This document shows, in pieces, positions 1,563 to 32,780 of a stretch of DNA of 32,780 nucleotides; position 1 is the first letter of the stretch; each line of letters opens with the position of its first letter. A program made the position numbers and the translations under genes. Location of the stretch: positions 1-32,780 of the forward strand of contig SXIK01000044.1 of NCBI GenBank assembly GCA_005772855.1, given 5' to 3'. This DNA comes from Planctomycetia bacterium (lineage in GTDB: Bacteria; Planctomycetota; UBA8108; SXIK01). The notes beneath the pieces are model-generated. The model was not told the DNA's origin. It saw only the letters and a list, made by a program, of their open reading frames with translations, and ran no database searches.

Positions 1563-2494
1563 TTCCTCACGGTCCCTTCGGGTGGCAGTTGATGCCGCCG
1601 CGCAGCCTTGCAAATGGTGCGGATGGAGCAAGCGCCACAGACCTCCGCCACCCATCGTCCCCGGCAGCGCTCGGAGATGCCAATGTGGCTCAGCGGAAAA
1701 TCGAACCAAAGCGGGTCGTCCGGCTCCAACTTCCGCAGGCTTGCTGTCACTTCCTCGGCCGCTATCCAGTCATTGGTTCGACGTTTTCTGAGGCCGATCA
1801 ACGTCGCAATCCGCCCAACATGCGTGTCGAGCGGCATCACAAGCTCGGCGGGGCGCACCCGGCTCCAGATTCCAAGGTCAACGCCGTCAGCACGGCGCAC
1901 GACCCAGCGGAGGAATAAATTCCAGCGTTTTGATGCCCCGCCCAGGCCCGGATCAGAGGCGAGGTGGCGATAACTCCGTGGATAGGTCCTCCGAGCCGTG
2001 ATGGAGAACGGATCCTCCCGATAGAATAGCTGTGCGAACGCGGCGAGGCGGGCATGGAACGTCGTGTTCCCTCCCGCGGCGAGGAAAGCATCCTCGAGAG
2101 TCTCGAACTCCCCGAGGATTCTCCTCAGGTTCCAGAAGAGCAGACGAAGATCCTCTCCTGTATAAATACGAGAGCGAAAGTTCCGAAAAAATCTCCGGTT
2201 GCACGCCGGGTCGTAGCTCAACACATAGTCTCGGGGCGAGCGTCCCATCACCTCCAGTACGCTCTGCACTTTCGGTAAGAAGGCCCTGACCTTGCCGAAG
2301 GCCAGTAGCGCGGAGACCAGGGCGACAACCTCCTGGTCCGCCGTCCGCGAATAGAGGTGCACAAACTTCACTGGGTCGTTCTCGAAGTATCCCTGACGCG
2401 GATTCCTCGCGGCCGCAAGCAGTGTGTTTCGAACGTTTTCAGGAACTCGAGGCAACTGGAGACTCCGTGGAACGTTATTCGGGGACGAGATCAC
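1559..2494 (-). CDS. TIGR02757 / DUF2400 family protein
   Basis: The 311-residue product carries the features I associate with the TIGR02757 (DUF2400) family: an N-terminal DPVKFVHLYSR..DQEVVALVSALLAFG block (residues about 40-70), a central KRWNLFLRWVVR..DGVDLGIW block (about 190-210), then LDTHVGRIA. A C-terminal cysteine group (CRGRWVAEVCGACSIRTIC) resembles the Cys cluster of helix-hairpin-helix DNA glycosylases, to which this family is distantly related. Biochemical function is not established. The GTG at 2494 has no clear ribosome binding site, and a TTG about 13 codons further in is an alternative. First gene of the leftward operon; it faces the rightward operon across only 44 bases, so both promoters must lie within or overlap the coding starts. 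Confidence 0.85.
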   Translation of the reverse strand: MISSPNNVPRSLQLPRVPENVRNTLLAAARNPRQGYFENDPVKFVHLYSRTADQEVVALVSALLAFGKVRAFLPKVQSVLEVMGRSPRDYVLSYDPACNRRFFRNFRSRIYTGEDLRLLFWNLRRILGEFETLEDAFLAAGGNTTFHARLAAFAQLFYREDPFSITARRTYPRSYRHLASDPGLGGASKRWNLFLRWVVRRADGVDLGIWSRVRPAELVMPLDTHVGRIATLIGLRKRRTNDWIAAEEVTASLRKLEPDDPLWFDFPLSHIGISERCRGRWVAEVCGACSIRTICKAARRHQLPPEGTVRK

Positions 2495-2538
2495 CGGAAC
2501 GATTGAGCTTTGCGAGGAGAAACTATAGACTCAGTGCC

Positions 2539-2979
2539 GTGAAGCGTCCACGGTCGTGCGACTCCATCTTGCTCTTCTGCGTGGTCCTTTCCCTGGCTCT
2601 GCTCCTGAGCTGCAGCTCTACCACCGAGCCGTCCAGTGGTGACCCCAGGGTTGACTTGAGGAGTGAGGATCCGAGAATCCGAATCCACGGCGCCCGGGCT
2701 GCCGCCGAGGCGAGCCGTATAGATCTACTGGAGGACCTTTCGCTCACTCTTTCGGATCCTGACCCCGCCGTGCGCATGTTCGCAGAAATAGCGCTCAGAA
2801 AGATCACAAACAAGGACTTCGACTTCAAGCCGCACGGCACGGCGACCGAACGTGAGGAGGCGAGAGCCAGGTGGGTCGAGTGGATCGCATCTCAAAATAA
2901 ACTGCCCGACAGTGGCGTGAAGGACCCGAGTACCGCACGAAAGGAGGAGCCGCAGGATGGCTCAATCCAGAGGTCGTGA
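2539..2979 (+). CDS. Small lipoprotein with HEAT-like repeats
   Basis: The 146-residue product starts at a GTG that gives a well-formed lipoprotein signal (residues 1-25, ending LALLLSC; lipobox LLSC). It is followed by a short Ser/Thr-rich linker. Residues about 35-95 look like two HEAT-type helical repeats (DPRIRIHGARAAAEA... and DPDPAVRMFAEIALRKIT). The following FDFKPHGTATEREEARARW stretch resembles the tail often seen in planctomycete HEAT proteins. The C-terminus is charged and probably disordered. The last 23 bases overlap the start of the anti-sigma-type gene, so the two are likely co-transcribed. An ATG frame starting at 2422 would add 39 residues without a signal peptide and is less likely. 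Probably an envelope protein-protein interaction partner; specific role unknown. Confidence 0.75.
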   Translation: MKRPRSCDSILLFCVVLSLALLLSCSSTTEPSSGDPRVDLRSEDPRIRIHGARAAAEASRIDLLEDLSLTLSDPDPAVRMFAEIALRKITNKDFDFKPHGTATEREEARARWVEWIASQNKLPDSGVKDPSTARKEEPQDGSIQRS

Positions 2980-3445
2980 GGCAGGGCCCTCGCGAGTCAA
3001 GACAGCGTGCGGCGCCAGGGCTCCGCTCGAGCTGCGCTTTGCGAGCTGCCCGGAGTACCTTTCTCTCTTGCGCCACACGGCCAGGTGGTACGCGAAGCGC
3101 TGCGGCTTCGACGACAAGGAGTGCGGACGAATCGTGCTCGCCCTGGTGGAGGCCGTGACCAACATCATCCGGCACGCCTACGATGGCGACGAGAACCAGC
3201 TGATTACGCTCAGGATTGGAGAGTGCGCGGGCGGAATCGAGCTGGAGCTGCTCGATCAAGGCAAGACCGTTCCCCCCTGCGCCCTCGAGAAGCCGCCTCG
3301 CGGCAAGCTCGAACCGGGCGGACTTGGAGTTCAAATGATGAAAACCTGCATGGATCACTTTCAGTACGAGCCGCAGCCTGGCGGTGGGACGCGCCTCGTT
3401 TTGAGGAAGCTCAAGGGACGCGATGGTCAGGAGACTTCGCCTTGA
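2957..3445 (+). CDS. RsbW/SpoIIAB-like anti-sigma serine kinase (GHKL ATPase)
   Basis: The 162-residue product is a single GHKL (HATPase_c) domain of the anti-sigma factor/serine kinase type. N-box: ALVEAVTNIIRHAY (Glu65, Asn69). G1 box: LDQGK (Asp100, Gly102). G2 box: GGLGVQMM (121-128). The C-terminal strand is GGGTRLVLRK. Family members bind a sigma factor or another target and phosphorylate a STAS-domain antagonist. The gene directly downstream encodes exactly such a STAS protein, sharing a TTGA stop/start overlap, so the pair is a complete partner-switch module. No sigma factor gene lies nearby. Instead the next genes encode MlaE, MlaF and MlaD, which suggests the module may act on lipid transport (inference). 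An AGGAG lies just upstream of the ATG. Confidence 0.9.
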   Translation: MAQSRGREAGPSRVKTACGARAPLELRFASCPEYLSLLRHTARWYAKRCGFDDKECGRIVLALVEAVTNIIRHAYDGDENQLITLRIGECAGGIELELLDQGKTVPPCALEKPPRGKLEPGGLGVQMMKTCMDHFQYEPQPGGGTRLVLRKLKGRDGQETSP

Positions 3446-3747
3446 AGCACAAGCTTTGGGCGCAAGCGAACCAGGCCTGCCTTGTCATCGAAGGTGACAT
3501 CGACATGCACGTGGCGGCCGAGCTCAGGGTGCTGCTCAAGGAGGCGGCGTCGTCGAAACCCACGGTGCTTCTGGTCGACCTCGCCGGCGTATCCTTCATC
3601 GATTCATCGGGCATCGCCACGATCGTGGAGGCCCTGAAGATCGTCAGGAAGTGGTTTGGCAAGCTCATCGTGAAGAACTGTCAGGAGGCCGTGAGCGACA
3701 CCTTCGAGATCGCAGGCCTCACCGAGATTTTGGGGATCGAGAGATGA
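3442..3747 (+). CDS. STAS-domain protein (anti-anti-sigma / MlaB-like)
   Basis: The 101-residue product is one STAS domain. The strand GDIDMHVAAELRVLL is followed by LLVDLAGVSFIDSSGIATIV, containing the DSSG signature. The first serine after Asp54 (Ser55) aligns with the residue phosphorylated in SpoIIAA/RsbV. The start is a TTG at 3442 that overlaps the preceding stop as TTGA, with CAGGAG about 8 bases upstream. The long frame that begins at 3007 is a shadow of the kinase gene. In the Mla system of Proteobacteria a STAS protein, MlaB, binds MlaF. Position immediately before mlaE makes an MlaB-like role as plausible as an RsbV-like one. Both may be true: a phosphorylatable MlaB. Confidence 0.9.
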   Translation: MKHKLWAQANQACLVIEGDIDMHVAAELRVLLKEAASSKPTVLLVDLAGVSFIDSSGIATIVEALKIVRKWFGKLIVKNCQEAVSDTFEIAGLTEILGIER

Positions 3748-3763
3748 TGGACGCATCGCCACC

Positions 3764-4561
3764 ATGAAAAGTCTCCTCGCACTTGCGGGCGGCCAGGTTC
3801 TCGGTTTGTTTGACTATTTGGGTGGCCTCGTCCTCCTCTTGTGGGACAGCCTCTGGTGGATGACGCTCGGTCCGCTGAGACGCAGCGGCAGGCTCCGGGT
3901 GGATGAGACCTTCTACCAGATGGAGCGCCTTTGCGTACGGTCCTTCTGGATTGTGTCGCTCGTCATCTTCTTCGTCGGGATCATCCTGGCATTTCAGATG
4001 GCCTACGTGCTCCGCACTCTGGGCGTGACCGAGTACGTCGCCAATATCACCGGCGTTGCCATGACCCGCGAGATGGCTCCGCTCCTGGTGGCCATGGTCA
4101 TGACGGGTTACGCCGGGGCAGCGATCACCGCAGAGATTGGAACCATGGTTGTCTCCGAGGAGATCCTTGCCCTGGAGACGGGGGCCATGAACCCCGTCAG
4201 GTTTCTCGTTGTGCCTCGCGTACTCGCGGCGATGGCCGTGATGCCCTTCGTGACGCTGGTAGCGACCTACATTGGCATTCTGGGGGGCTTCTTCGTCGGA
4301 AATGTGCTGCTTGGGATCGAGGCCGAGAAGTACTTGAACCGTACTCTCGAGTCCCTCAAGTACAAGGATGTCTTCACCGGGCTCGTGAAGGCAGAGGCTT
4401 TCGGCGTGATCGTGGCCCTGATAGCCTGCCAGGAGGGGCTTCGGGTCACCGGTGGAGCCGAGGGGGTCGGACGAGCCACCACCAACTCGGTCGTCCGCTC
4501 CATCGTGGCCATCATTATCTGTGACATGTTCTTCACAGCCCTTTTTTACTACATGCTCTGA
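3764..4561 (+). CDS. mlaE: MlaE-family ABC transporter permease
   Basis: The 265-residue inner-membrane protein matches the MlaE/YrbE permease family. An amphipathic N-terminal region precedes a hydrophobic segment at about 65-90. The family-typical block NITGVAMTREMAPLLVAMVM with AGAAITAEIGTM (about 100-130) is followed by VLALETGAMNP-like and FLVVPRVLAAMAVMP elements and two further membrane spans. These proteins are the membrane part of lipid importers/exporters that move phospholipids or other lipids between membranes. The gene is followed by mlaF with a TGATG overlap and by mlaD. The length is typical for the family. It begins 16 bases after the STAS gene, so the two are very likely co-transcribed. 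Confidence 0.93.
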   Translation: MKSLLALAGGQVLGLFDYLGGLVLLLWDSLWWMTLGPLRRSGRLRVDETFYQMERLCVRSFWIVSLVIFFVGIILAFQMAYVLRTLGVTEYVANITGVAMTREMAPLLVAMVMTGYAGAAITAEIGTMVVSEEILALETGAMNPVRFLVVPRVLAAMAVMPFVTLVATYIGILGGFFVGNVLLGIEAEKYLNRTLESLKYKDVFTGLVKAEAFGVIVALIACQEGLRVTGGAEGVGRATTNSVVRSIVAIIICDMFFTALFYYML

Positions 4562-5406
4562 TGCAAGGCGCCCCCCCACAAGTGACCGCTCCCAGGAAGC
4601 GAAGGCGTCTGACCGACGAGGTCGTCATTGACGTACGAGACGTGCACGTCTCGTACGACGAGCGCTCCATCCTTGCGGGAATCAACCTGGTGGCCTATCG
4701 GGGCGAGATCCTCGTTATCATGGGCGGCTCCGGTTGTGGCAAGTCAACGCTCCTGAGGAGCATCGTCGGGGCCGAGGAGCCCCTGAAGGGCTCGGTCCAG
4801 ATGCTCGGTGAGGAGATCTACAAGCTCGAGGAGGCGCCCTTGAACACGCTCCGGAAGCGCTTTGGGATTCTCTTCCAGTCAGGCGCTCTCTACAACTCGA
4901 TGTCGGTGGGCGAGAATGTCGCACTGCCCCTCAGGGAGCACACCGACCTCGACGACGAAATCATTCGAATCATGGTCAAGATGAAGCTCGAACTCGTGGG
5001 CCTGAGGGACTTCGAAAATCTCCGGCCGGCTCAGATCTCGGGCGGCATGAAGAAGCGGGTCGGGCTGGCGAGAGCGCTGGCGCTCGATCCCGAAATCATC
5101 TTTTATGACGAGCCTGGCGCCGGGCTCGACCCTGTCGTCGCGGGTGTTATTGACAAGCTGATCATGGACCTCTCGCAAAAAGTAGGTGTCACGAGCATCG
5201 TCGTGACGCACGAGATGGGGAGCGCGTTCCGCATTGCCGACCGCATGATCATGCTCCATGAGGGCCGAGTGGTCGCCGAGGGCACCCCCGAGGAGATGCG
5301 CACCTCAACCCACCCGCTTGTGAAGCAGTTTATCAACGGCGAGCCCGACGGGCCAATCCCGCTACGGCGCTCCCGTATCGACTACGCCGAAGACCTCCTC
5401 GCCTGA
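4561..5406 (+). CDS. mlaF: MlaF-family ABC transporter ATPase
   Basis: The 281-residue ATPase has all ABC motifs: Walker A GGSGCGKST (about 55-63), Q-loop FQSGALYNSM (Gln106), signature ISGGMKKRVGLARAL (159-173), Walker B IIFYDEPGAGLDP (179-191) and the switch histidine in VVTHEMG (His217). The 'ISGGMKKR' signature and GAGLDP are typical of the MlaF branch, not of importers of small solutes. An N-terminal basic stretch (PRKRRR) precedes the domain. The ATG overlaps the mlaE stop (TGATG), giving tight translational coupling. It energises the MlaE permease; in known systems a STAS protein binds this subunit. The C-terminal tail of about 40 residues past the ABC core could be the contact surface. 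Confidence 0.95.
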   Translation: MQGAPPQVTAPRKRRRLTDEVVIDVRDVHVSYDERSILAGINLVAYRGEILVIMGGSGCGKSTLLRSIVGAEEPLKGSVQMLGEEIYKLEEAPLNTLRKRFGILFQSGALYNSMSVGENVALPLREHTDLDDEIIRIMVKMKLELVGLRDFENLRPAQISGGMKKRVGLARALALDPEIIFYDEPGAGLDPVVAGVIDKLIMDLSQKVGVTSIVVTHEMGSAFRIADRMIMLHEGRVVAEGTPEEMRTSTHPLVKQFINGEPDGPIPLRRSRIDYAEDLLA

Positions 5407-5421
5407 TGGAACGGACCCCCA

Positions 5422-6561
5422 ATGCCCCGAAAAAAGCGTAATGAAATTCTCGTGGGTGGCTTCGTAGCCGGCGCCACTCTCCTGTTCTTCCTGCTCCTCT
5501 TCCTCATGGGGTCGCTCGACAGCCTCCTGGTCTCATCCACCACGGTGGACGCAGATTTTGGCAATGTGCAAGGCCTGCAAGTCGGAGATCCGGTCTGGCT
5601 CTTCGGCAACAAGGTGGGAAAGGTGGCGGCAATCACGCTGCTTCCCAAGGAGCCTGGCAAGCGCGCCCAGGTCCGGGTGAGCCTGCGGATCCCCAGGGCA
5701 GCCTTCGAATATCTGCGCAAGGACTCGATTGTCAAGATTGACAAGCAGCTCACGGGCAATATCAGCGTCATTATCCAGGAGTCCGACGGCGAGCCTTTGC
5801 TGGATGGCGGTCGGCTCGCTGGAACGGCGACAGCCGACTTCGCCACCGTGACGCAGAAGGCGAGCAGCCTGCTCGAGGAGGCGCAGAACGTGGTTCGCAC
5901 GGTGTCAAGGCTCGTGGGCGAGATCGAGTCGAAAGGTGAAATCGAGAAGTCCCTCACGGCGGCAAGGGCCCTACTTGAAAACTTGAACACTCGCTTCGTC
6001 CCCCTCGGCGAGAAGCTCAGCACAGCGATGGAGCAGCTCCAGGGGATCCTCGATGAAAATCGCATCGACATCCGACACACCGTGGCCAACCTGCGCGAGA
6101 CTTCGGGCGCCGCCAAGGGCCTCCTGGAGAAGCTCGTGTCGACTCCCGAGCAGATCGCGCGAAGCCTGGACGAACTGGAGAAGGCGGGAGCCGCGATCGG
6201 CGGCCTCGTGAAGGAGAACCGTTCGAGCTTCGACATGATCGTCGGTGACCTGCGCCAGGTGATGACCAATGCCTCGAACCTCACGTCGGAGGTCAAACGA
6301 AGGCCCTGGCGCCTCCTCTACCGCCCCAACGAGGCGGAGCTCAAGGCCATGGACCTTTACGACGCTGCGTGGGCCTACAACCTGGGCGCAACCGAGCTCA
6401 ACCGTAGTATCCGCGACTTCACCTCGCGCCTTGAGGCTGACCCGGCGGGTGCAAAGCAGCCCGAGTTGCTGGAGGAGGCGAGACGACAGATGGCGCAAAG
6501 TCTGAGGCGTCACCGCGAGGCCGAAGAGCAGTTCTGGACGAGGCTCAAGGCCTCGCAATAG
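5422..6561 (+). CDS. mlaD: MCE-domain substrate-binding protein (MlaD-like)
   Basis: The 379-residue protein has a short cytoplasmic head (MPRKKRNE), one membrane anchor (about residues 9-31) and an MCE domain (about 40-120; DADFGNVQGLQVGDPVWLFG, then KVGKVAAI). A long helical, probably coiled-coil region follows (about 130-375), rich in Leu, Glu, Lys and Arg. MCE proteins form hexameric rings that pass lipids from the MlaEF complex into the periplasm. The extended C-terminal helical part may form a tube or needle, as in longer MCE proteins, instead of a plain MlaD ring. It follows mlaF by 15 bases. No MlaC or MlaA homologue was seen, so the periplasmic carrier and outer-membrane partner, if any, are elsewhere. 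Confidence 0.92.
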   Translation: MPRKKRNEILVGGFVAGATLLFFLLLFLMGSLDSLLVSSTTVDADFGNVQGLQVGDPVWLFGNKVGKVAAITLLPKEPGKRAQVRVSLRIPRAAFEYLRKDSIVKIDKQLTGNISVIIQESDGEPLLDGGRLAGTATADFATVTQKASSLLEEAQNVVRTVSRLVGEIESKGEIEKSLTAARALLENLNTRFVPLGEKLSTAMEQLQGILDENRIDIRHTVANLRETSGAAKGLLEKLVSTPEQIARSLDELEKAGAAIGGLVKENRSSFDMIVGDLRQVMTNASNLTSEVKRRPWRLLYRPNEAELKAMDLYDAAWAYNLGATELNRSIRDFTSRLEADPAGAKQPELLEEARRQMAQSLRRHREAEEQFWTRLKASQ

Positions 6562-6611
6562 GAGGGCGTGCTGGCAATGCAACAACCCCACGGCACGAAT
6601 TGCCCAGGCAA

Positions 6612-8402
6612 ATGAAGGACTCGGACCCGCCCACATCGCCCGAGAGCCGGCCGGGCCCAGGAGTCGCACTCGGGTTTTATGTCCTCGCCGCCATCTTGCT
6701 GACCTGGCCGCTGGCAGGGCACCTGACCGACCGACTGCCCGCTGGCGACAACGACCTCTGGCAGAACTACTGGAACTTTGATTGGTGGCGAACCGCTCTG
6801 CTTGAGCGGGGGCGCCTCCCCTATTCGACCGACGTTCTCTATCAACCCGGCCCTGTGTCGCTCGCGTTCCATACCCACTCCGAAGCCAACGTCCTCTTGA
6901 CGATGCCCGTCCAGCTCGCGTTGGGCGTGCCCGCAGCCCTCAACACGGCCCTGCTCTTGAGCTTTATTCTGTGTGGCTGGGGCGGGTACTTCCTCGCCCG
7001 CGATGTCGTGCACGATTCCGGGGCCGCTCTTGTTGCGGGGCTCGTGCTCATGCTCTACCCGCAAAGAATCGAGCAGTCGCTCGAGCACCTGAACCTCGTC
7101 AGCTTTCAAGCGATGCCGTTCTTCCTCTGCATTTTCTTGCGGCTTCTTCGCAGGGGAGGAGCGCGCCACTCGATCGCGGCCGGACTACTCTATGCCACAA
7201 ACGCGCTCTATTCCTGGCACAACGGGCTCCTTGTGCTGCCCTTCGCGGTTGTGTTTTTTGTGCAGGCCCTCTGGCGTGGCGAGCAGCCGCGCCTTCGAAT
7301 GACGCTCGATGCCGTGTTTGCCGGCCTGGTCGCCTTCGCCGTCTTGCTGCCCTTTGCGTGGCCCATGATCCGGGAGATTTTGGCGGGCGAAACCTACTTC
7401 CTGAAGCCCCCCGTCAACCGCGCAATCGATCCGCTCTTCTTGCTGGTCCCATCCGAGGTACATCCCTTCTGGGGCGGACTTTTCTCCGGGCTCTACGCGA
7501 GCTTCAGAGGCTATGCCTCGGCCGGCTTCACGTGCTACGCGGGGCTCGTGGCGCTCGCGCTCTGGCTCGCGGGCGGTTACTTGAGCCGGATGCGACCCTC
7601 GTGGAGGCTCTGGTCAGCACTCCTTGCGCTGGCGGTCGTGCTCGCGATGGGCGACACCTTCTCCACGGGAGGTTGGGATACAGGTCTGTGGCTTCCATTC
7701 TCGGGCCTTCGCTCGGTACCGATTCTCAGCACGATTCGCATTCCGAATCGTTTCATGGTTCCCGCAATGATCGCGCTTTCCGTGCTCGTTGCTATCGGTA
7801 CTCGCGAGCTGGCCCGGCTGGCGGAAGCCCGGCGCTCTGGCGCCGCCCCGTGGGTCGTCTGCGCCACGGGAATCCTGATCGCCATCGATTTTCTTGCCGT
7901 GCCGTTTCCCCTGCGTGAGCTGCCGCGGCCCAAATGGCTCGAAGCGCTCCGCCTCGAGCCCGAGGGGTTGCTGCTCGATGTTCCCGGAGGCTTCCGGGCC
8001 CGCGGCGCCGAGGACCTGTATTTCCAGACGATCCATCGTCGGCCGATCGTCGGCGGGTACACGTCCTGCGTGCCGCCCGGGGTGGAGAATCGGATCGCCT
8101 CTCTCCCGTTCCTCGGGCTCGTCTTCGAGGGAAGGCCGAAGGCGCCGGTGGACGTCGCCGCCGGGGTTGCCCAGGTGCTCGAGAGCCTGCCCATCCGTGT
8201 CGTGGTCGTTCACCTCGATCGCAAGCGAGAGCGGCTCGAGCAGAGGGCAAGAGCCGTGGCCGGCACGCGCCGGGCCCGAGTCGTAAACCCGGAGCGCGGC
8301 ACCAAGGCGGAGGTAATCGATGCGACTCGAGAGACGCTGCGGCGGCTCTGGGGCGAGCCCGTGTTTGCTGACGCGGACGCCGAGGTGTTCGTGCGGAGGT
8401 GA
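6612..8402 (+). CDS. Polytopic membrane protein, GT-C glycosyltransferase-like
   Basis: The 596-residue protein has a long series of hydrophobic segments (roughly ten, over residues 15-430) followed by a soluble C-terminal domain of about 170 residues. The first extracytoplasmic loop contains DRLPAGDNDLWQNYWNFDWW and the later HTHSEANVLL. An acidic, aromatic first loop like this is typical of GT-C-fold glycosyltransferases that use polyprenyl-linked sugars. Such assignments from sequence alone are weak, so treat it as a membrane protein of probable GT-C type. The ATG at 6612 was preferred over the TTG at 6600 because no better site is visible. It lies 50 bases after mlaD on the same strand and may belong to that operon; a role in envelope glycan or lipid modification would fit. 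Confidence 0.6.
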   Translation: MKDSDPPTSPESRPGPGVALGFYVLAAILLTWPLAGHLTDRLPAGDNDLWQNYWNFDWWRTALLERGRLPYSTDVLYQPGPVSLAFHTHSEANVLLTMPVQLALGVPAALNTALLLSFILCGWGGYFLARDVVHDSGAALVAGLVLMLYPQRIEQSLEHLNLVSFQAMPFFLCIFLRLLRRGGARHSIAAGLLYATNALYSWHNGLLVLPFAVVFFVQALWRGEQPRLRMTLDAVFAGLVAFAVLLPFAWPMIREILAGETYFLKPPVNRAIDPLFLLVPSEVHPFWGGLFSGLYASFRGYASAGFTCYAGLVALALWLAGGYLSRMRPSWRLWSALLALAVVLAMGDTFSTGGWDTGLWLPFSGLRSVPILSTIRIPNRFMVPAMIALSVLVAIGTRELARLAEARRSGAAPWVVCATGILIAIDFLAVPFPLRELPRPKWLEALRLEPEGLLLDVPGGFRARGAEDLYFQTIHRRPIVGGYTSCVPPGVENRIASLPFLGLVFEGRPKAPVDVAAGVAQVLESLPIRVVVVHLDRKRERLEQRARAVAGTRRARVVNPERGTKAEVIDATRETLRRLWGEPVFADADAEVFVRR

Positions 8403-10604: not shown

Positions 10605-13600
10605 ATGAATGGGTCGTCACGATTCACGCAGAAACCCGCGGCAGCCGGCGGCTTGAGTCGTTCTCTCCTGCGGCTAATGTTTTTGGCCCTGGGACTCATT
10701 GCCGCCCCGTCTCTCAACGCCGTGATCGTGATCTCGGAGATCCAGTACCACCCTCGAGGGAATGACTCCGAGCTCGAGTACATCGAGCTTCACAACGAGA
10801 CGCCGGATCCCATGGACCTGACCGGCTACTTTTTTTCAAGGGGCATAGATTTTACGTTCACGGACCGGACCTTCCTCGACCCGGGTGCCTACCTTGTCGT
10901 TTGCGCCAACAAGGACAGGATCGCCGCCGCGTACGGCATCACCAACGTCGTGGGGAATTGGTCCCCGGAGACTTCGCTGAAAAACTCGGGCGAATCGATC
11001 GAGCTCTCGAATCCGGCCGGCGTGGTGGAGGCGCGTGTGACCTACAATGATCGAGGAAAGTGGCCCTCGGGCGCCGACGGCACCGGGCACTCGCTCGAGC
11101 TCAAGGACGTCTACGCCGACATGGACGACCCGGACCACTGGGCCCTGAGCGGCAAGATGGGCGGTTCACCGGGCCAGCCGAACAACACCTTGCCTGGCGC
11201 AGTCTCGGTGGTCATCAATGAGGCCCTCCTGACGGGTAATTCGGGCGAACGGTGGATGGAGCTATACAACCACGGAAAGGACGACGTCGATCTCTCTGGT
11301 TTTCACGTTTCGAACAATCAAGACGACCTCAGCAGGGCCACGCTCGCGGCCGGAACGACCCTTGCCGCTGGCAAGTGGCTCGTCCTGAGCGACAGACTGA
11401 CCGGGCTCGACTTTGGCCCCGACAAGAGCGGGCGGTCCTTTCTCGCGCTCGTGAGCCCCACCGGTGATCGCGTGATCGACGCACGCACCTTCGAGCCGAA
11501 TACCCTCTACCCCGGCCTGAGCGAGGCCAGGATCCCGGACGGCGATTCCTTCTTTTCGAGCTCCGCCGACCCGACACCCAACGCGGCCAACCAGATCACG
11601 GTGCAATCCGATATCGTGATCAATGAGATCTTCTACCATCCGATCGATGGCGACCCGCGGGGGGAGTTCGTCGAGCTTTACAACCGTGGCTCGCAAGCGA
11701 TCGACCTGACAGGTTGGAGCGTCTCCGACGGCGTGCGCTTCGAATTCCCGGACGGAACCGTGGTCGACGGCCATGGTCACCTCGTCGTCGCCCGAGACCC
11801 TGCAAACATCCGGGCCGTCTACGGCCTTCCTGCCACGGCGGTGCTCGGCCCGCCAGATGACAGCGATGCACTCGATCGTTTCGGTACGTTGGCCGATTCG
11901 GGAGAACGAGTATCCATTTCTGATGCCCGAGGAAACATTGTCGACACGGTCCGCTACTTTGACGGCGGCGAGTGGCCCCGCTGGGCCGACGGCGGCGGCT
12001 CTTCCATGGAGCTCATTGACCCCAACCAGGACAACTCCTTCGCGCAGGCGTGGGATTCATCCGACGAGTCGCAAAAATCAGAGGCCACCCGGTACTCCTA
12101 CAAGGGCACGCTTTCGAGCAGCACCACTTTCGCAGACCCTCCGGAGTTCCACCTGGTGATGACGGGCTCAGGCATTACGGTCGTCGATGACCTCACCATG
12201 GTTTCCCGGGTGAGTACTTTTACGCCCGAGACGATTTATGTCACGAGCAATGACACGTGGAAGCTCAAGAAGGGCACGGAGGAGGCTTCCGTGCCGGTCA
12301 CGGCGTGGCGAGAGCTCGAGTATGACGACAGCGCCTGGACCGATGCGCAGGCGATTATTGGATTTGGTGAGTTCGACGAGACGACCGTTCTTGACGACAT
12401 GAGGAAGTTCGGCGTCAACCCGGGGTATGCCTCTTTCTTTGTTCGCAAGACCTTCCAGGTTGCCGACCTGGCAGCCTTGAAAGACCTCGTCCTCGAGATC
12501 CAGTATGACGATGGCTTCGTCGCCTATCTCAACGGCGTTGAGGTTGCTTCGGGCAACATGGACCTGAAGGATCGGGCATACAAGTCCCTGGCCTTGCTCG
12601 TCAGGGAGAAACAAAAAGACCTTGTCGACCTCGCGGCCTGGAAGCCTGTGTTGCGCGCCGGTCGCAACGTGCTCGCGATCCAGGTGCACAACCAATCGCT
12701 GGTCTCAAACGATGCCCGCTTTTCCGCGCAGCTCGCGAGTGGGACCATCAGCACCGAGGAGGGATCAAATTTGTTCAAGGATGGCTCGTTCGAGACCGTC
12801 CCCGACAAGCCAGCTTGGGTCCTGCAGGGTACCCACGTTCGCTCCGGCCGCACGACCGCCGAGGCAATCTCCGGCGAGGGATCGCTCAAGATTGTTTCCA
12901 CTGGCGGCGGCGACAACAAGGTGAACCGAATCGAAACCTCCAACACGGGCCTCACGGCCCCCAGGGTGAGGACTGTCTACGATATTTCGTTTTTGGCGAA
13001 ATGGATTTGTGGTACGCCAACTCTCCTGACGCACGGCTCTTATCAGGGCTCGGACCCACCGAGCTACGCCGCCTCGACCCCACTGATGGTGCCGAGAAAT
13101 CTGGGCACTCCAGGCGCTCCCAACAGCGTCACGCTGCGTCAAGTCGCCGAGACCGGCTCGAGTAGTAACCTCGGTCCCGTGATCAAGCAGGTGAAACATG
13201 CGCCCTCGCTCCCGGCAGCGAATGAGGCCGTGACGATCGAAGCGCGCATTTACGACCCCGACGGGGTGTCGAGCGCAGTGGTCAAGTACAGCCTGGATAC
13301 GCCGAAGGTCCCGGGTGACCCGGCGCTCCTCGAAGTGCCCATGACCGATGAAGACGGCGACGGCGTCTACACGGCACAGATTCCGGGCCAGGCCCTCAAG
13401 AAGAAGGTTGTCTACTGCATCGTGGCCAGGGACTCAAGAGGTCAGTTGGGCCGTTGGCCGCTTGACCACGTCCACAGAACGAACCCGCTCATCCTCGATC
13501 CTTCTCTGGCAGGTGCCAACGACGACCAGTACGCCGTCTACCGCCATGACACCCCCTTTGCGGGCAAGCCACAATCCTTCCGTTTCTGGATGCACGGTGC

Positions 13601-15539
13601 CAACGAGCAGTACCTCTCCTCGCGGCCGCTCCACTCAAACGACCTTGTCGCTGGCACTCTATTGTTCCAATCCCGCGACGTTTATTACAACGCCGGAATC
13701 CGCTTCTCCGGGAGCCCTTTTGCTCGTCAAGCCTGGACGGAGAGTTACCGCATGCGGCTGCCAAAAGACAATCCGCTACAGGGTACGATCGAGAGTTTCA
13801 ACATGGAGGACCACCAGGATGGCGGCGCCGTTTCCGCCAAGGAGCGGATCTCGAATTACCTCCTGCGTTGGCATCAGGGACAGACCATTGGTCCCTACTC
13901 GCTCCAGTGGTACGTTCAGTTGCAGGTGAACGATCGGGTCAACGAGCTTCGGGAGCTGGTCCAAACACCCAACGCGGAGTTCATTGGCCGCTGGTGGCCC
14001 GGGGACGACCGAGGGTCTTTCTTTGAAATGGATGATCGTCACACCTTTACCGACGATGGCAGTCGTGAGAACTCGGTGGACGCAGTGCTCCTCTACCCCC
14101 CCTACGGCGCTTCTGGCCTGGGCGGTGACAAGGAGCAGTACCGCCACTACTTCAATCTGCGTCTCAAGGAGGAGGAAGATGACTTCTCCGAGCTGATCAA
14201 ACTGGCGAGACTCTTGACAACCTCCCAGACTCCCGACAACGAGTTTGATCGGCTGGTGTGGGATCAAGTCGACGTCGAATCGTTTTGCCGTTACTGGTCG
14301 ATCCGCATGAACACCGACGACTGGGATTGCTGGGGCACGAATCGCGGCAAGAACTGCTATCTTTACCGGCCCGAGGGTGCCGGCAAGTGGTACCTGATTC
14401 CGTGGGATATGGAGCTGACCTACACGAATTCGTCATCTTTTCTTCCGCCCGCGTTGACGGCAACTTCAAATTCCACTTATCTGAACACCTTCGCGGAGGT
14501 GACCCGCTTCATCAATCGCCCGCGGATCAAGCGCCTCTACTATGGCATCCTGAAGGAGATGATTGACAGACAGTTTCAATCATCCTTCCTGCTCCCTTAC
14601 ATGCAGAAACTGGATGCGGTGGGCGCCCAGTGGACCGATATCGGCAAGCCAAAGGGGTTCATCGATACTCGACGCAAGATGCTGCAAACGGTCGTCAAGG
14701 GAGTCACGATGCCCACGATCAGCTTCACCATCACGACCAACGGCGGCCAGCCCCTTGAGATTGAGTGGACACAGCTTGAGCTCAAGGGCAAGGCGCCCGT
14801 GGAGATTCGGGATATCGTCGTGAGGATCGACGGCAAGGACCCCACACCGCCGTGGAGAGTCGAGTTCTCCTCCACGGACCTTCTCGGCTGGACAGTCAGT
14901 GGCAGCTTGAGCCTTGGGGAGCACACAGTCGAGCTCGTCGGATTCACCAGTGACCTTGCGGTTGTGGCCTCCACTTCGATCACCGTGACCGTATTGCCCG
15001 CCGTCCCACCCGTCATCTCCGCAGTGACACCGCTCAAGGCGGTTGTGGGCGAGCTCGTGACGATCACCGGGACAGGATTCAGGGCAACTTCCAGGGTGCT
15101 CTTCGGCGAAGTCCAGGCCGCGCAGGTGACCTTCAACCCTGAAGCGAGCCAACAGATTGTGGCCGCGGTCCCCGCGGGTGTTCCGCTCGAAATGGTCGAG
15201 GTGCGCGTGGAGAACCTTGGAGGGATTCAATCGGATCCCTTCGCAATTCAGGTGGTCGCAGAAAAGAAACGATTCCTTCGTGGTGACAGCGATCGAAGCG
15301 GCCAGGTGAATCTGACGGACGCCCTTTACTCGCTGGATTTCCTCTTCCAGCAAGGCCAACTACCGCTCTGCATGGACGCCGGCGACGTGGATGACGACGG
15401 CAGCTTGAACATCACCGACGCGATCGTTCTCCTGCGATTCCTTTTCCAGGGAGGCGCTCAGCCGCCGGCCCCGTTTCCCGAGGTAGCTGAGGATCCGACT
15501 CCACTCGACCCGCTCACCTGCGCAATCGGTGTCGAGTAG
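10605..15539 (+). CDS. Giant secreted lamin-tail / CotH / dockerin-like protein
   Basis: The 1644-residue product has an N-terminal signal peptide (about 1-38, ending APSLNA). Three lamin-tail domains follow, each starting near a 'VI[SN]E' strand (about 39-165, 200-300 and 337-465; for example SEIQYHP and INEIFYHP). Next is a jelly-roll-like region (about 547-703, ELEYDDSAW and GFGEFDE), a putative carbohydrate-binding region (about 722-842), an Ig-like strand domain (about 858-966) and a CotH domain (about 975-1365; includes WDCWGTNRGKNCYLY and LIPWDMELTY). An IPT/TIG domain (about 1467-1552) and a dockerin-like tail (about 1557-1644, RGDSDRSGQVNLTDAL and DVDDDGSLNITDAI) complete it. CotH is a kinase-like fold known to phosphorylate spore-coat proteins; activity here is untested. 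The C-terminal tandem calcium-loop module is a planctomycete hallmark, probably a surface or secretion tag. Confidence 0.9.
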   Translation: MNGSSRFTQKPAAAGGLSRSLLRLMFLALGLIAAPSLNAVIVISEIQYHPRGNDSELEYIELHNETPDPMDLTGYFFSRGIDFTFTDRTFLDPGAYLVVCANKDRIAAAYGITNVVGNWSPETSLKNSGESIELSNPAGVVEARVTYNDRGKWPSGADGTGHSLELKDVYADMDDPDHWALSGKMGGSPGQPNNTLPGAVSVVINEALLTGNSGERWMELYNHGKDDVDLSGFHVSNNQDDLSRATLAAGTTLAAGKWLVLSDRLTGLDFGPDKSGRSFLALVSPTGDRVIDARTFEPNTLYPGLSEARIPDGDSFFSSSADPTPNAANQITVQSDIVINEIFYHPIDGDPRGEFVELYNRGSQAIDLTGWSVSDGVRFEFPDGTVVDGHGHLVVARDPANIRAVYGLPATAVLGPPDDSDALDRFGTLADSGERVSISDARGNIVDTVRYFDGGEWPRWADGGGSSMELIDPNQDNSFAQAWDSSDESQKSEATRYSYKGTLSSSTTFADPPEFHLVMTGSGITVVDDLTMVSRVSTFTPETIYVTSNDTWKLKKGTEEASVPVTAWRELEYDDSAWTDAQAIIGFGEFDETTVLDDMRKFGVNPGYASFFVRKTFQVADLAALKDLVLEIQYDDGFVAYLNGVEVASGNMDLKDRAYKSLALLVREKQKDLVDLAAWKPVLRAGRNVLAIQVHNQSLVSNDARFSAQLASGTISTEEGSNLFKDGSFETVPDKPAWVLQGTHVRSGRTTAEAISGEGSLKIVSTGGGDNKVNRIETSNTGLTAPRVRTVYDISFLAKWICGTPTLLTHGSYQGSDPPSYAASTPLMVPRNLGTPGAPNSVTLRQVAETGSSSNLGPVIKQVKHAPSLPAANEAVTIEARIYDPDGVSSAVVKYSLDTPKVPGDPALLEVPMTDEDGDGVYTAQIPGQALKKKVVYCIVARDSRGQLGRWPLDHVHRTNPLILDPSLAGANDDQYAVYRHDTPFAGKPQSFRFWMHGANEQYLSSRPLHSNDLVAGTLLFQSRDVYYNAGIRFSGSPFARQAWTESYRMRLPKDNPLQGTIESFNMEDHQDGGAVSAKERISNYLLRWHQGQTIGPYSLQWYVQLQVNDRVNELRELVQTPNAEFIGRWWPGDDRGSFFEMDDRHTFTDDGSRENSVDAVLLYPPYGASGLGGDKEQYRHYFNLRLKEEEDDFSELIKLARLLTTSQTPDNEFDRLVWDQVDVESFCRYWSIRMNTDDWDCWGTNRGKNCYLYRPEGAGKWYLIPWDMELTYTNSSSFLPPALTATSNSTYLNTFAEVTRFINRPRIKRLYYGILKEMIDRQFQSSFLLPYMQKLDAVGAQWTDIGKPKGFIDTRRKMLQTVVKGVTMPTISFTITTNGGQPLEIEWTQLELKGKAPVEIRDIVVRIDGKDPTPPWRVEFSSTDLLGWTVSGSLSLGEHTVELVGFTSDLAVVASTSITVTVLPAVPPVISAVTPLKAVVGELVTITGTGFRATSRVLFGEVQAAQVTFNPEASQQIVAAVPAGVPLEMVEVRVENLGGIQSDPFAIQVVAEKKRFLRGDSDRSGQVNLTDALYSLDFLFQQGQLPLCMDAGDVDDDGSLNITDAIVLLRFLFQGGAQPPAPFPEVAEDPTPLDPLTCAIGVE

Positions 15540-21799: not shown

Positions 21800-22144
21800 T
21801 CAACTCCCAGGGCTCTCGCCGGAAGCTGCCTTCACACATTCCCCGCAAGGACAGATCGCTCGCAAGTGGTCGAAGCTGTAAATACCGCTCGAGTGACCAT
21901 CGGACCACGCGAAGTGAAGCGCGTAACGGCCGACGGGCTCGATGCGGACAGGCTTCACATCCTCGGGGACCGCTTCCGGCCGGAGGGTACGCTCTCCGGT
22001 CCACTCGTCCACGCACGCGGCGCAACGGCAGGATCTCCGCAGGTACACAACCGGGTAAGTGCTCACGTGGCCGTCTGTCCACGTGATCTCGAGGTCCTTC
22101 GGTCCAACCTGGCGCATGTTCGTTGGGGAAACCTTCTCTGCCAT
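21800..22144 (-). CDS. DUF971 domain protein
   Basis: The 114-residue product is a single DUF971 domain: LEITWTDGHVSTYPVVYLRR, then CRCAAC (Cys39, 41, 44), later LHFAWSDGHSSGIYSFDHLR and CPCGEC (Cys98, 100, 103). The domain is also found at the N-terminus of gamma-butyrobetaine hydroxylase-like enzymes. The clustered cysteines suggest metal binding. Starts at ATG 22144, four bases after the Mrp stop. DUF971 and Mrp genes are often neighbours or fused, suggesting a joint role in iron-sulfur metabolism (inference from the family's usual context). A longer frame (to 22423) inside the Mrp gene is rejected. Confidence 0.88.
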   Translation of the reverse strand: MAEKVSPTNMRQVGPKDLEITWTDGHVSTYPVVYLRRSCRCAACVDEWTGERTLRPEAVPEDVKPVRIEPVGRYALHFAWSDGHSSGIYSFDHLRAICPCGECVKAASGESPGS

Positions 22145-22148
22145 GGGG

Positions 22149-23270
22149 TCACTTCCAATCGATCGGACCCGGCATGATGGGCGCATGCGGCAAGCTCTTT
22201 CCGCCCGACTCGGCCAACATGGAGAGCTGTGCGGCCACCTGCCTCGCGAAGGCTGTGTAGGCCTGTGCGGCAGGAGAATCCGGTTTTTCGCGAACGATGG
22301 GGTTCCCCAGATCTCCACCCACCGGCACCGAGGGATCGATCGGGATCTCCCCCAGGAACGGCACGCCCAACTCCTCGCTCGTCTTCTTGCCTCCTCCGTG
22401 CCGGAAAATCTCGGTGCGTTCACCGCAGTGAGGGCACAGAAAGTAGCTCATGTTTTCTACAATCCCGAGGACAGGCACGCGAAGCTGCCGGAACATGAGG
22501 AGGCCCTTGCGGGCGTCAAGCAGGCTCACATCCTGCGGCGTCGTAACGATCACGGCGCCGGAGAGAGCGATCGCCTGTGAAATCGACAGCTGTGCATCCC
22601 CTGTACCCGGAGGAAGATCGACTACCAGGTAGTCAAGCTCGCCCCAGGCAGAGTCGCGCACGAGCTGCTGGATCGCCCCGTGCACCATCGGCCCGCGCCA
22701 GATGACCGGCGTATCAGGCCCCGAAAGGAATCCCATCGAGATCACCTTGATGCCGTGGGCATCGATCGGGACGATCTTGCGGTCCTCGGTTACCTCGGGC
22801 CGACTGTTGATCCCAAACATCATGGCCATGCTGGGCCCGTGGATGTCAGCGTCAAAGAGGCCAACGCGGGCGCCTGAAACCTTCAGCGCCATGGCCAGGT
22901 TCGCCGCTGTTGTGGACTTGCCAACGCCGCCCTTGCCGCTGGCGACTGCAATGATGTTCTTGACGCCCTGGAGCACCGCAGTGGCGGCACCGACGTTCAT
23001 GCGGCGGACCTGGGCGGTCATTTCGATGTCGACCTGCTCGACGCCGACGATGGCACTGACCTTCTGATGGCACTCTGCCTTGAGCTGCTCCTTGACCGGG
23101 CAGGCGGGCGTCGTGAGCTCGACCTTGAAGCTTACCTTGCCCCCTTCAATCTTGAGCTCCTTGATGAAGCCAAGGGAAACAATGTCCCGGTGCAAATCGG
23201 GATCTTCAACCGTCCTCAAGGCTTCGAGGATCTTGCTCTCATCGACCGTCTTCTTCGCGCGTCCAAACAT
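22149..23270 (-). CDS. mrp: Mrp/NBP35-type iron-sulfur carrier ATPase
   Basis: The 373-residue product has an N-terminal MIP18/DUF59 domain (about 12-90; LRTVEDPDLHRDIVSLGFIK, ACPVKEQL). The P-loop ATPase domain follows with the deviant Walker A GKGGVGKST (112-120), ADIHGPSM and DLPPGTGDAQLS (about 218-230). A CPHC motif (Cys279, Cys282) is the Fe-S binding pair found in this family, and IPIDPSVPVGGDLGNP closes the domain. Members bind and pass on [4Fe-4S] clusters to apoproteins. Length and motifs are typical. The gene is followed directly by DUF971, and faces a UbiD-family gene on the other strand across about 225 bases. Confidence 0.95.
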   Translation of the reverse strand: MFGRAKKTVDESKILEALRTVEDPDLHRDIVSLGFIKELKIEGGKVSFKVELTTPACPVKEQLKAECHQKVSAIVGVEQVDIEMTAQVRRMNVGAATAVLQGVKNIIAVASGKGGVGKSTTAANLAMALKVSGARVGLFDADIHGPSMAMMFGINSRPEVTEDRKIVPIDAHGIKVISMGFLSGPDTPVIWRGPMVHGAIQQLVRDSAWGELDYLVVDLPPGTGDAQLSISQAIALSGAVIVTTPQDVSLLDARKGLLMFRQLRVPVLGIVENMSYFLCPHCGERTEIFRHGGGKKTSEELGVPFLGEIPIDPSVPVGGDLGNPIVREKPDSPAAQAYTAFARQVAAQLSMLAESGGKSLPHAPIMPGPIDWK

Positions 23271-25334: not shown

Positions 25335-25717
25335 TTTGCAGCCTGCGAAAGGTTGCGGCTGCTCGCGCCAGAGGCGCCCGGCGCCCATCAGGCGCCGAGG
25401 AGTGGGTTTGCGGCGAGCTGGCGGAGCCGCAAACGGCTCGGAGGGAGCCGGCGCCAGCGAGAAGCTGGCGGCTCCCGAGAGCCTGGCCCGGAGGGGCCGC
25501 GCAGCGTGCGACCGGAGGGGCCGCGTGGCGTTGTTGCCTCCGCCCTCGCTCCGCCCTCGCTCCGCCCTCGCTCCGCCCTCGCTCCGCCCTCGCTCCGCTC
25601 GGAGGCGAGCCGTCGTGGGGGAGGGTTCGCCTCCCCCACCAGCAGAAACGAGCAGCAGGCTTGAGATGGTCCTCCTCTGCCCATTCGGAATGTCTCACGT
25701 GTGGGCGCGCGAGGTGT
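25335..25717 (+). repeat. Multi-hairpin dispersed repeat, copy R2 (full length)
   Basis: The only copy fully inside the window, about 383 bases, between the convergent ends of the UbiD gene and the TPR protein gene. Left end TTTGCAGCCTGCGAAAGG matches (inverted) the right end of copy R3; right end GGGCGCGCGAGGTGTA matches the other three. From left to right it holds a GGCGCC-CATCA-GGCGCC hairpin and the GAGCCG/CGGCTC, bulged 13-bp and GTGGGGGAGG-type hairpins described for R1. It differs from R1 by an 11-bp tandem expansion (25541-25595). No target-site duplication or obvious terminal inverted repeat was seen. Confidence 0.9.
25541..25595 (+). repeat. 11-bp tandem repeat (5 units) inside R2
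   Basis: Five head-to-tail copies of CGCCCTCGCTC. The other element copies carry a single unit at this place, so this is a copy-number expansion, most simply by replication slippage. Confidence 0.9.
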
Positions 25718-25937
25718 AGACCACGGCTCGCCTTCGGCGGGCCGAGACACCCCCTCAAATCTCCCTCTGAAGGGGGCCACGCTGCCCCCCTCACACTCCC
25801 CTTGGCGAGTACCGCACACGAGCTACATTTTCAGGCCCTAACTTACGGTGCGTGGTACTGCGCCTGTTGGCCCTTCGCTCGGCCTCGGATCGATGGAGAG
25901 AATTTTGGGATAGGCTCCCGGTTGCCAGACGCTTGCT
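25718..25937. other. Intergenic stretch with two hairpins
   Basis: No gene seen. A UUCG-like hairpin (GCTCGCC-TTC-GGCGGGC, 25726-25742, one G.T pair) and a GGGGGC/GCCCCC hairpin (25772-25789, 6-nt loop) lie between convergent gene ends. They could act as transcription terminators, but neither is followed by a T-run. Confidence 0.4.
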
Positions 25938-32454: not shown

Positions 32455-32780
32455 TATACCTCGCACGCCCACACGTGAGACATTCCGAATGGGCAGAGGA
32501 GGACCATCTCAAGTCTGCTGCTCGTTTCTGCTGGTGGGGGAAGGCGGACCCTCCCTCACGACGGCTCGCCGTCCGAGCGGAGCGAGGGCGGAGGCAACAA
32601 CGCCACGCGGCCCCTCCGGTCGCACGCTGCGCGTGCGCTTCCGGGCCAGGCTCTCGGGAGCCGCCAGCTCTCGCTGGCGCCGGCTCCCTCCGAGCCGTTG
32701 GCGGCTCCGCCAGCTCGCCGCAAACCCCCTCCTCGGCGCCTGATGGGCGCCGGGCGCCTCTGGCGCGAGCAGCCGCAACC
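32455..32780 (-). repeat. Multi-hairpin dispersed repeat, copy R4 (truncated by window edge)
   Basis: Inverted relative to R1/R2. Starts at TATACCTCGCACGCCCACACG and contains the full middle including the bulged hairpin and a single 11-bp unit. It ends at the window edge within the GGCGCGAGCAGCCGCAACC end. The long GTGGGGGAAGG stem has two substitutions that weaken pairing compared with R1. Confidence 0.9.

Follow-up and report, generated by a model that had tools for sequence, protein, structure and literature searches.

A Serine Kinase and a STAS Protein Encoded With an Mla-Type Lipid Transporter in Planctomycetota and Other Phyla: A Candidate Partner Switch

Gene Content and Organization of the Operon

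The DNA analyzed here is a stretch of 32,780 nucleotides from a Planctomycetia bacterium (assembly GCA_005772855.1, contig SXIK01000044.1, positions 1 to 32,780), referred to below as the window. It contains an operon in which genes that encode a SpoIIAB/RsbW-like serine kinase and a STAS protein precede those of an Mla-type lipid ATP-binding cassette (ABC) transporter (Table 1). The genes for the kinase, the STAS protein, MlaE, MlaF, and MlaD occupy positions 2957–6561 in a single direction and almost without gaps. The kinase stop overlaps the TTG start of the STAS gene by 4 bp, mlaE and mlaF overlap by 1 bp, and the remaining two gaps are 16 and 15 bp. Terminator-like sites within 2300–6800 are not more numerous than in shuffled sequence. 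An earlier annotation of this DNA, made from the letters and open reading frames (ORFs) without database searches (the sequence-only reading), had placed these five genes here and described the STAS gene as coupled to the kinase gene. All five are present, and their families score above the Pfam cut-offs. The five genes of that proposed unit stand, but its upstream boundary does not, because a HEAT-repeat lipoprotein gene that overlaps the start of the kinase gene also belongs to the unit.

The joint presence of the MlaE, MlaF, and MlaD families in one operon identifies the transporter as an Mla/MCE lipid ABC transporter. The top PDB matches of the window MlaF are the MlaF proteins of Pseudomonas aeruginosa, Acinetobacter, and Escherichia coli, and its score for the MlaF equivalog PRK11831 is below the cut-off (263 vs. 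441).

Table 1. Positions of the operon genes and associated sequence features in the window.
Feature	Position	Strand	Evidence
SpoIIAB/RsbW-like serine kinase, 162 amino acids	2957..3445	+	Pfam HATPase_c_2, 86.8 bits vs. cut-off 27.4
STAS protein, 101 amino acids, TTG start	3442..3747	+	Pfam STAS, 59.9 bits vs. 22.6
MlaE permease	3764..4561	+	MlaE PF02405, 240.1 bits vs. 22.5; TIGR00056, 213.8 vs. 212.2
MlaF ATPase	4561..5406	+	ABC_tran PF00005, 102 bits vs. 25
MlaD, MCE-domain protein with a long C-terminal part	5422..6561	+	PF02470, 35.7 bits vs. 25.1
HEAT-repeat lipoprotein, GTG start, lipobox-like LLSC	2539..2979	+	HEAT_2, E 6.4e-05, under the Pfam cut-off
AGGAGG ribosome-binding site of the kinase gene	2942..2947	+	Sequence reading; 9 bases before the kinase start
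Ser55 codon in the STAS gene, predicted phospho-site, DSSG	3604..3606	+	Alignment with MlaB Thr52
MlaF C-terminal helix DYAEDLLA	5380..5406	+	Comparison with E. coli MlaF

Conservation of the Gene Order

A kinase profile was run over 392 Planctomycetota genomes with matches taken at E <= 1e-15. The kinase class was defined as the 53 highest-scoring genomes, each at 117 bits or more, with the cut chosen after the list had been inspected. The gene order that the sequence-only reading noticed in the window recurs among these genomes: mlaE or mlaF lies within 1.6 kb downstream of the kinase gene in 46 of the 53, and a complete mlaE-mlaF-mlaD set is found downstream in 13. Lower-scoring kinase regions are linked to mla genes in five of 17 cases (L105, L107, L108, L116, and L119; labels of this kind are our own). 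Named genomes were scanned with a query built from Mla-linked kinases, and among the best 80 of 294 kinase relatives, 72 contigs have mlaE or mlaF within 1.5 kb past the kinase gene. These linked contigs represent several phyla. Beyond Planctomycetota, they include Syntrophobacteraceae and Desulfarculaceae (Desulfobacterota), KSB1, Caldithrix, Nitrospirae, Omnitrophota, and Tectomicrobia, as well as gammaproteobacterial metagenome-assembled genomes (e.g., Thiohalobacter and Chromatiales). One of the 72 (L146) owes its place to an incomplete MlaE match of 36 bits at a contig end, and a stricter threshold removed it from the set of 115 linked kinases introduced below. The other eight of the 80 comprise two contig ends (L168 and L174), two loci with mla genes rearranged nearby (L170 and L203), three with none (L158, L197, and L199), and one (L210) in which the kinase lies at the contig start and no STAS gene occurs in the following 6 kb. 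Within the phylum to which the L189 genome belongs (recorded as Syntrophobacteraceae), a search at E 1e-30 recovered the kinase class from only four of 198 genomes, so its distribution outside Planctomycetota is sporadic; one kinase from that search (L277) lies at a contig end. Viral contigs scanned with the kinase yielded no relative.

Some genomes contributed to more than one set of loci. Merging was confined to identical kinase segments, which reduced 149 to 142 and left 115 distinct Mla-linked kinases and 27 kinases not counted as linked. The profiles used for annotation were built from few seeds, the window included. In a tree of 147 kinases, a quick build with long branches, the Mla label requires nine changes compared with 27.5 in shuffles. 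The genome of the window has eight HATPase_c_2 matches and eight STAS matches, and families this common could be thought to have become neighbors of an mla operon by chance, as unrelated genes. That explanation is refuted by the order conserved in 46/53 and 72/80 cases and has practically no probability left; moreover, only one of the four MlaE loci in this genome has the kinase beside it.

Kinase and STAS Protein

The first gene of the pair encodes an RsbW/SpoIIAB-like ATPase, in agreement with the sequence-only reading. The protein combines a HATPase_c_2 domain with the N-box residues E65 and N69, the G1 residue D100, and the G2 motif GGLG (121–124), which are the features of the SpoIIAB/RsbW family, and its PDB matches are RsbW (E 6.1e-12) and SpoIIAB (2.1e-08). 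Scores for the individual equivalog models are below their cut-offs (PRK04069, 55.9 vs. 145; TIGR01925, 54.4 vs. 135; TIGR01924, 48.1 vs. 155). The N-box Glu and Asn and both G2 glycines are kept in all 115 Mla-linked kinases, and the G1 Asp is kept in 111. The kinases without this Asp (L107, L108, L049, and L103) have intact N-box and G2 motifs.

The STAS protein keeps the DSSG serine that the sequence-only reading had pointed out as the target of anti-sigma kinases. This residue, Ser55, aligns with Thr52 of E. coli MlaB and is invariant in a 48-member alignment. All 107 Mla-linked STAS proteins have Ser or Thr at this site: 104 have Ser in the motif D-S-[SA]-G and three have Thr in GTPG. The latter proteins (L163, L193, and L201) have no Asp before the phospho-site. 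Position 59 is Ala in 47 of the 48 aligned Mla-linked STAS proteins, as in E. coli MlaB, and is Gly in SpoIIAA, RsbV, and TM1442. A different motif, SSAGAGV, is found in 11 of the 19 STAS proteins outside the linked set.

For family assignment, the STAS protein exceeds the cut-off of the TIGR00377 ant_ant_sig profile (72 bits vs. 53.45). Identification as MlaB by profile was rejected, as the score for the MlaB equivalog NF033618 is 22.2 bits vs. 90, and the claim made here is therefore limited to a STAS protein that works like MlaB. The AlphaFold2 model (predicted local distance difference test score 96.1) has its best match in RsbV of the RsbV-RsbW complex (Z 18.1), followed by SpoIIAA (Z 16.3). 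Its fold is also like that of MlaB proteins of known structure, although RsbV scores higher: Z is 13.0 for P. aeruginosa MlaB in MlaFEBD (7cha_K; root-mean-square deviation 2.0, 96 residues aligned) and 11.6 for E. coli MlaB (6xbd_K). The STAS protein resembles RsbV and occupies the place of MlaB. At a separate locus that lacks the kinase (L258; G047:C9), a weak STAS match precedes MlaE in a 403-residue open frame, which is perhaps a STAS-MlaE fusion.

Docking Helix of MlaF

The crystal structure of E. coli MlaFB shows the C-terminal extension of MlaF wrapped around the neighboring MlaF, with Tyr261, Leu265, and Leu266 inserted into the MlaF-MlaB groove (PMC7367683). The MlaF encoded with the STAS protein in the window carries such a docking C-terminal helix. 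It ends in DYAEDLLA, compared with DYHADLLPGS in E. coli, and Y275, L279, and L280 correspond to the three E. coli residues. Two other MlaF proteins of this genome have no DYAEDLLA-type ending. Under a strict definition, the helix pattern is present in 10 of 11 kinase-operon MlaFs and in none of 16 unlinked MlaFs (Fisher p 1.3e-6); under a relaxed definition, all 11 kinase-operon MlaFs have it. The 11 linked MlaFs are those of the window and of ten genomes already searched for unlinked mlaE, picked from 46 linked tails. The 16 unlinked MlaFs were taken from the genome of the window, the ten genomes just mentioned, and two in which MlaF is encoded in trans; five unlinked loci whose MlaF match was absent or frameshifted (L237, L251, L259, L260, and L263) were left out. 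A first, looser test flagged 26 of the 46 linked tails, with a lower rate among those outside the chosen 11, and several phyla have YLxxLV-like or other endings, so the exact helix residues are not universal. Nine MlaFs in trans were available from genomes with a kinase-STAS-mlaE arrangement. Five of these were scored with the helix pattern, and two more (L286 and L287) were scored as missing because their DWEQDIL lies just beyond the scored stretch of 36 residues.

Phosphatase and Lipoprotein Genes

Among the best 80 named contigs, 17 have a gene for a SpoIIE-type PP2C phosphatase directly upstream of the kinase gene. Of these 17, 14 have mla genes downstream, and the full PP2C-kinase-STAS-MlaE-MlaF-MlaD order is found in 10 of the 80. 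The PP2C phosphatases of these loci carry GAF domains, and HDOD in two cases. In these loci, the PP2C, kinase, and STAS genes place the three enzymes of a complete partner switch alongside the transporter genes. Natural fusions of the kinase and the SpoIIE phosphatase were also observed near mla genes at two loci (L096 and L098, in frames of 583 and 573 amino acids), with a GAF domain between the two parts in L096.

Directly upstream of the 115 Mla-linked kinases, the gene is a HEAT homolog in 84 cases, PP2C in 16, and another gene in 13, and two kinases are preceded by a contig end. The corresponding counts for the 27 kinases not counted as linked are 15 for PP2C and five for the HEAT gene, and those five HEAT-preceded kinases are accompanied by STAS proteins of the Mla-linked type. 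By these counts, the HEAT gene holds the place that the phosphatase gene has in other phyla, and the HEAT-repeat lipoprotein is a further conserved member of the operon unit. The lipobox count is 70/89, obtained with a loose pattern allowed anywhere in stop-to-stop ORFs. Most Planctomycetota copies of the operon have no adjacent phosphatase gene. The genome of the window has three SpoIIE-type genes, two on contig C231 and one on C50, and two of them have GAF domains. None was seen beside a kinase match, and one of the three may serve as the switch phosphatase in trans.

The scarcity of adjacent phosphatase genes in Planctomycetota, together with the loss of the G1 Asp in 4/115 kinases, would fit a different role for the pair, in which the kinase is a chaperone or scaffold for a STAS protein that serves constitutively as a structural subunit, with no regulated phosphorylation. 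Such a role is very improbable in view of the invariant N-box Glu/Asn and G2 glycines (115/115), the Ser or Thr at the phospho-site of every linked STAS protein (107/107), and the dedicated PP2C in 17/80 named contigs.

Sigma Factors

In sequence and fold, the two proteins are nearest to RsbW/SpoIIAB and RsbV/SpoIIAA. Sigma factors are present in the genome, one of which reads like the FliA type, and the RsbW of Chlamydia is described as acting on the main sigma factor (PMC4552016). These features would suit an ordinary anti-sigma module, in which a distant sigma factor is bound by the kinase and set free by the STAS protein, and the mla genes are merely co-transcribed. The sequence-only reading had offered this as its alternative, and it appears unlikely. 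That reading had also noted the lack of a nearby sigma factor, and the searches bear this out: two sigma queries from this genome, with which extracytoplasmic function (ECF) types were probably missed, detected no sigma-like ORF in 153 loci (the window and 152 others). In addition, no SigB/F/G-type sigma factor scores above the curated cut-off in this genome or in 14 others with the operon, such that the STAS protein has neither a cognate sigma factor nearby nor one of these types in the genome, as an anti-anti-sigma factor would. Plain RsbW/RsbV control of SigB was not accepted on these grounds. Moreover, the link to mla genes is kept across phyla, and the same genomes hold other kinase-STAS pairs that belong to a different sequence class, some with PP2C.

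Proposed Mechanism

The operon probably encodes a self-contained partner switch that has a lipid ABC transporter, in place of a sigma factor, as its output, with the STAS protein acting as the MlaB of this transporter and the kinase turning it off via Ser55. In its unphosphorylated form, the STAS protein would bind the MlaF helical subdomain, where the C-terminal helix of the adjacent MlaF would clamp it, and in this state it would keep MlaF on MlaE, with transport on. The kinase would dock on the STAS protein at the same helical face and phosphorylate Ser55; a phosphate there, at the center of the MlaF interface, would block STAS binding and stop transport. Dephosphorylation would fall to a SpoIIE-type PP2C that carries a GAF or HDOD sensor; this enzyme is encoded by the first operon gene in several other phyla and would have to act from elsewhere in the genome here. 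The HEAT-repeat lipoprotein, encoded in first place in Planctomycetota, may report the state of the envelope. As the kinase-facing surface of the STAS protein and the MlaF-facing surface of MlaB center on the same residue, the two contacts should exclude each other. The corresponding E. coli residue, Thr52, lies at the center of the MlaF-MlaB interface; the phosphomimetic T52E weakens MlaF binding, and MlaF does not stay on MlaE without MlaB (PMC7367683).

The suggestion of the sequence-only reading that a phospho-switch may act directly on lipid transport instead of transcription gains support, at the level of sequence, from the gene order, the phospho-site, the kinase catalytic residues, the MlaF helix, the PP2C genes, and the lack of SigB/F/G types. 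A fuller version of the mechanism has an even chance of being correct. In this version, the STAS protein is the effector that alternates between the kinase and MlaF, the sensor-phosphatase and the kinase gate inter-membrane lipid transport, and the HEAT lipoprotein of Planctomycetota replaces the phosphatase as the first gene and feeds in envelope information.

Several observations weigh against a partner switch acting on the transporter. Seven of the 53 Planctomycetota genomes have no mlaE or mlaF directly downstream of the kinase gene; these comprise one contig end (G168), two genomes with mla genes nearby (G130 and G096), and four with none (G288, G329, G077, and G145). The mlaF gene is located elsewhere in many kinase-carrying genomes (an MlaF relative with E 1e-45 or lower was found in nine of ten such genomes), and two of the MlaFs in trans (L288 and L289) are without the helix pattern. 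The operon in the window has no adjacent phosphatase gene, and the combination of PP2C with kinase and STAS that marks partner switching is not found in it. The G1 Asp is lost in four linked kinases. The STAS protein falls short of the MlaB equivalog and is nearer to RsbV/SpoIIAA than to MlaB in sequence and fold. Finally, E. coli MlaB T52A still binds MlaF yet abolishes ATPase activity (PMC5016091), which suggests that Ser55 may do more than block binding and leaves room for the opposite switch direction.

According to that opposite direction, the STAS protein phosphorylated at Ser55 would be the active form, and phosphorylation would turn the transporter on or tune the ATPase rate without release. 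The T52A result speaks for it, since the hydroxyl evidently matters in the bound state. However, T52E lowers the association with MlaF in E. coli, and phosphorylation breaks binding in SpoIIAA, RsbR, and RsbS (PMC7367683); an active phospho-form is thus rather unlikely. For the partner switch in which phosphorylation turns transport off, we infer the mechanism strongly, and it is open to a simple biochemical test.

Other Features of the Window

A dispersed repeat of about 170 bp flanks the window, with copies at 87–264, 25498–25719, and 32455–32719 (minus strand). It has 41 matches in the genome, many of them near contig ends, and it probably breaks the assembly. A gene at 10605–15539 encodes a protein of 1644 amino acids with three lamin-tail domains, a CotH kinase domain, and a TIG domain. 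An ORF at 21800–22423 (minus strand) has a GBBH-like N-terminal domain of the DUF971 type and overlaps the end of an ApbC/Mrp-like iron-sulfur carrier gene (22149–23270).

Comparison With Known Systems

Phosphorylation of MlaB was hypothesized in two eLife papers, Thong 2016 and Kolich 2020, with no kinase named in the passages concerned (PMC5016091, PMC7367683). The proposed regulatory site is Thr52, and one of these papers treats the question of how active MlaB is regulated as open. Kolich 2020 describes MlaB phosphorylation as without experimental evidence and leaves it to future study. In a search of the open-access literature, with subscription journals and preprints largely uncovered, no title or abstract start described the present operon. 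A published survey reports that MlaB is only sparsely distributed, based on a profile built from NF033618 (PMC10665443). As the STAS protein of the window fails that model, operons of the present kind could be missed in such a survey. For the suspected phosphoregulation of MlaB, candidates for the kinase, the phosphatase, and the phospho-site are encoded side by side in operons of this kind, which makes the question testable with purified proteins. If the proposed mechanism is true, partner switching directly controls a membrane transporter, and in several phyla the traffic of lipids to the outer membrane can be switched rapidly at the post-translational level. Kinase-STAS pairs that carry an anti-sigma annotation may likewise have other targets.

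Compared with E. coli MlaFEDB (PMC7367683, PMC5016091), the present system shares MlaE, MlaD, an MlaF with the docking helix, and a STAS protein with Thr or Ser at the same site. The E. coli operon differs in containing mlaC, and no kinase is known there as far as these papers describe it. Here, the STAS gene follows a kinase gene and comes before mlaE, and the sequence of its product is nearer to RsbV/SpoIIAA. The Mla system of Veillonella, which lacks MlaB, shares the MlaEFD core and an MlaF with a short C-terminal extension but is described as having no STAS protein (PMC10665443).

The SpoIIAA-SpoIIAB-SpoIIE and RsbV-RsbW-RsbU switches of Bacillus share the three protein families, the DSSG motif, and the kinase catalytic residues with the present system, including a SpoIIE-type phosphatase that is encoded upstream of the kinase in several phyla with this operon. 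Unlike these switches, the operon contains no sigma factor gene and has lipid ABC transporter genes downstream, and in the proposed scheme the output comes from the STAS protein rather than from the kinase. The SypE-SypA pair of Vibrio fischeri, discussed in connection with the control of biofilm formation, is likewise a kinase-STAS pair outside the Bacillus sigma switches. It differs in having no described link to a transporter, and an abstract on the pair describes the SypA target as unknown.

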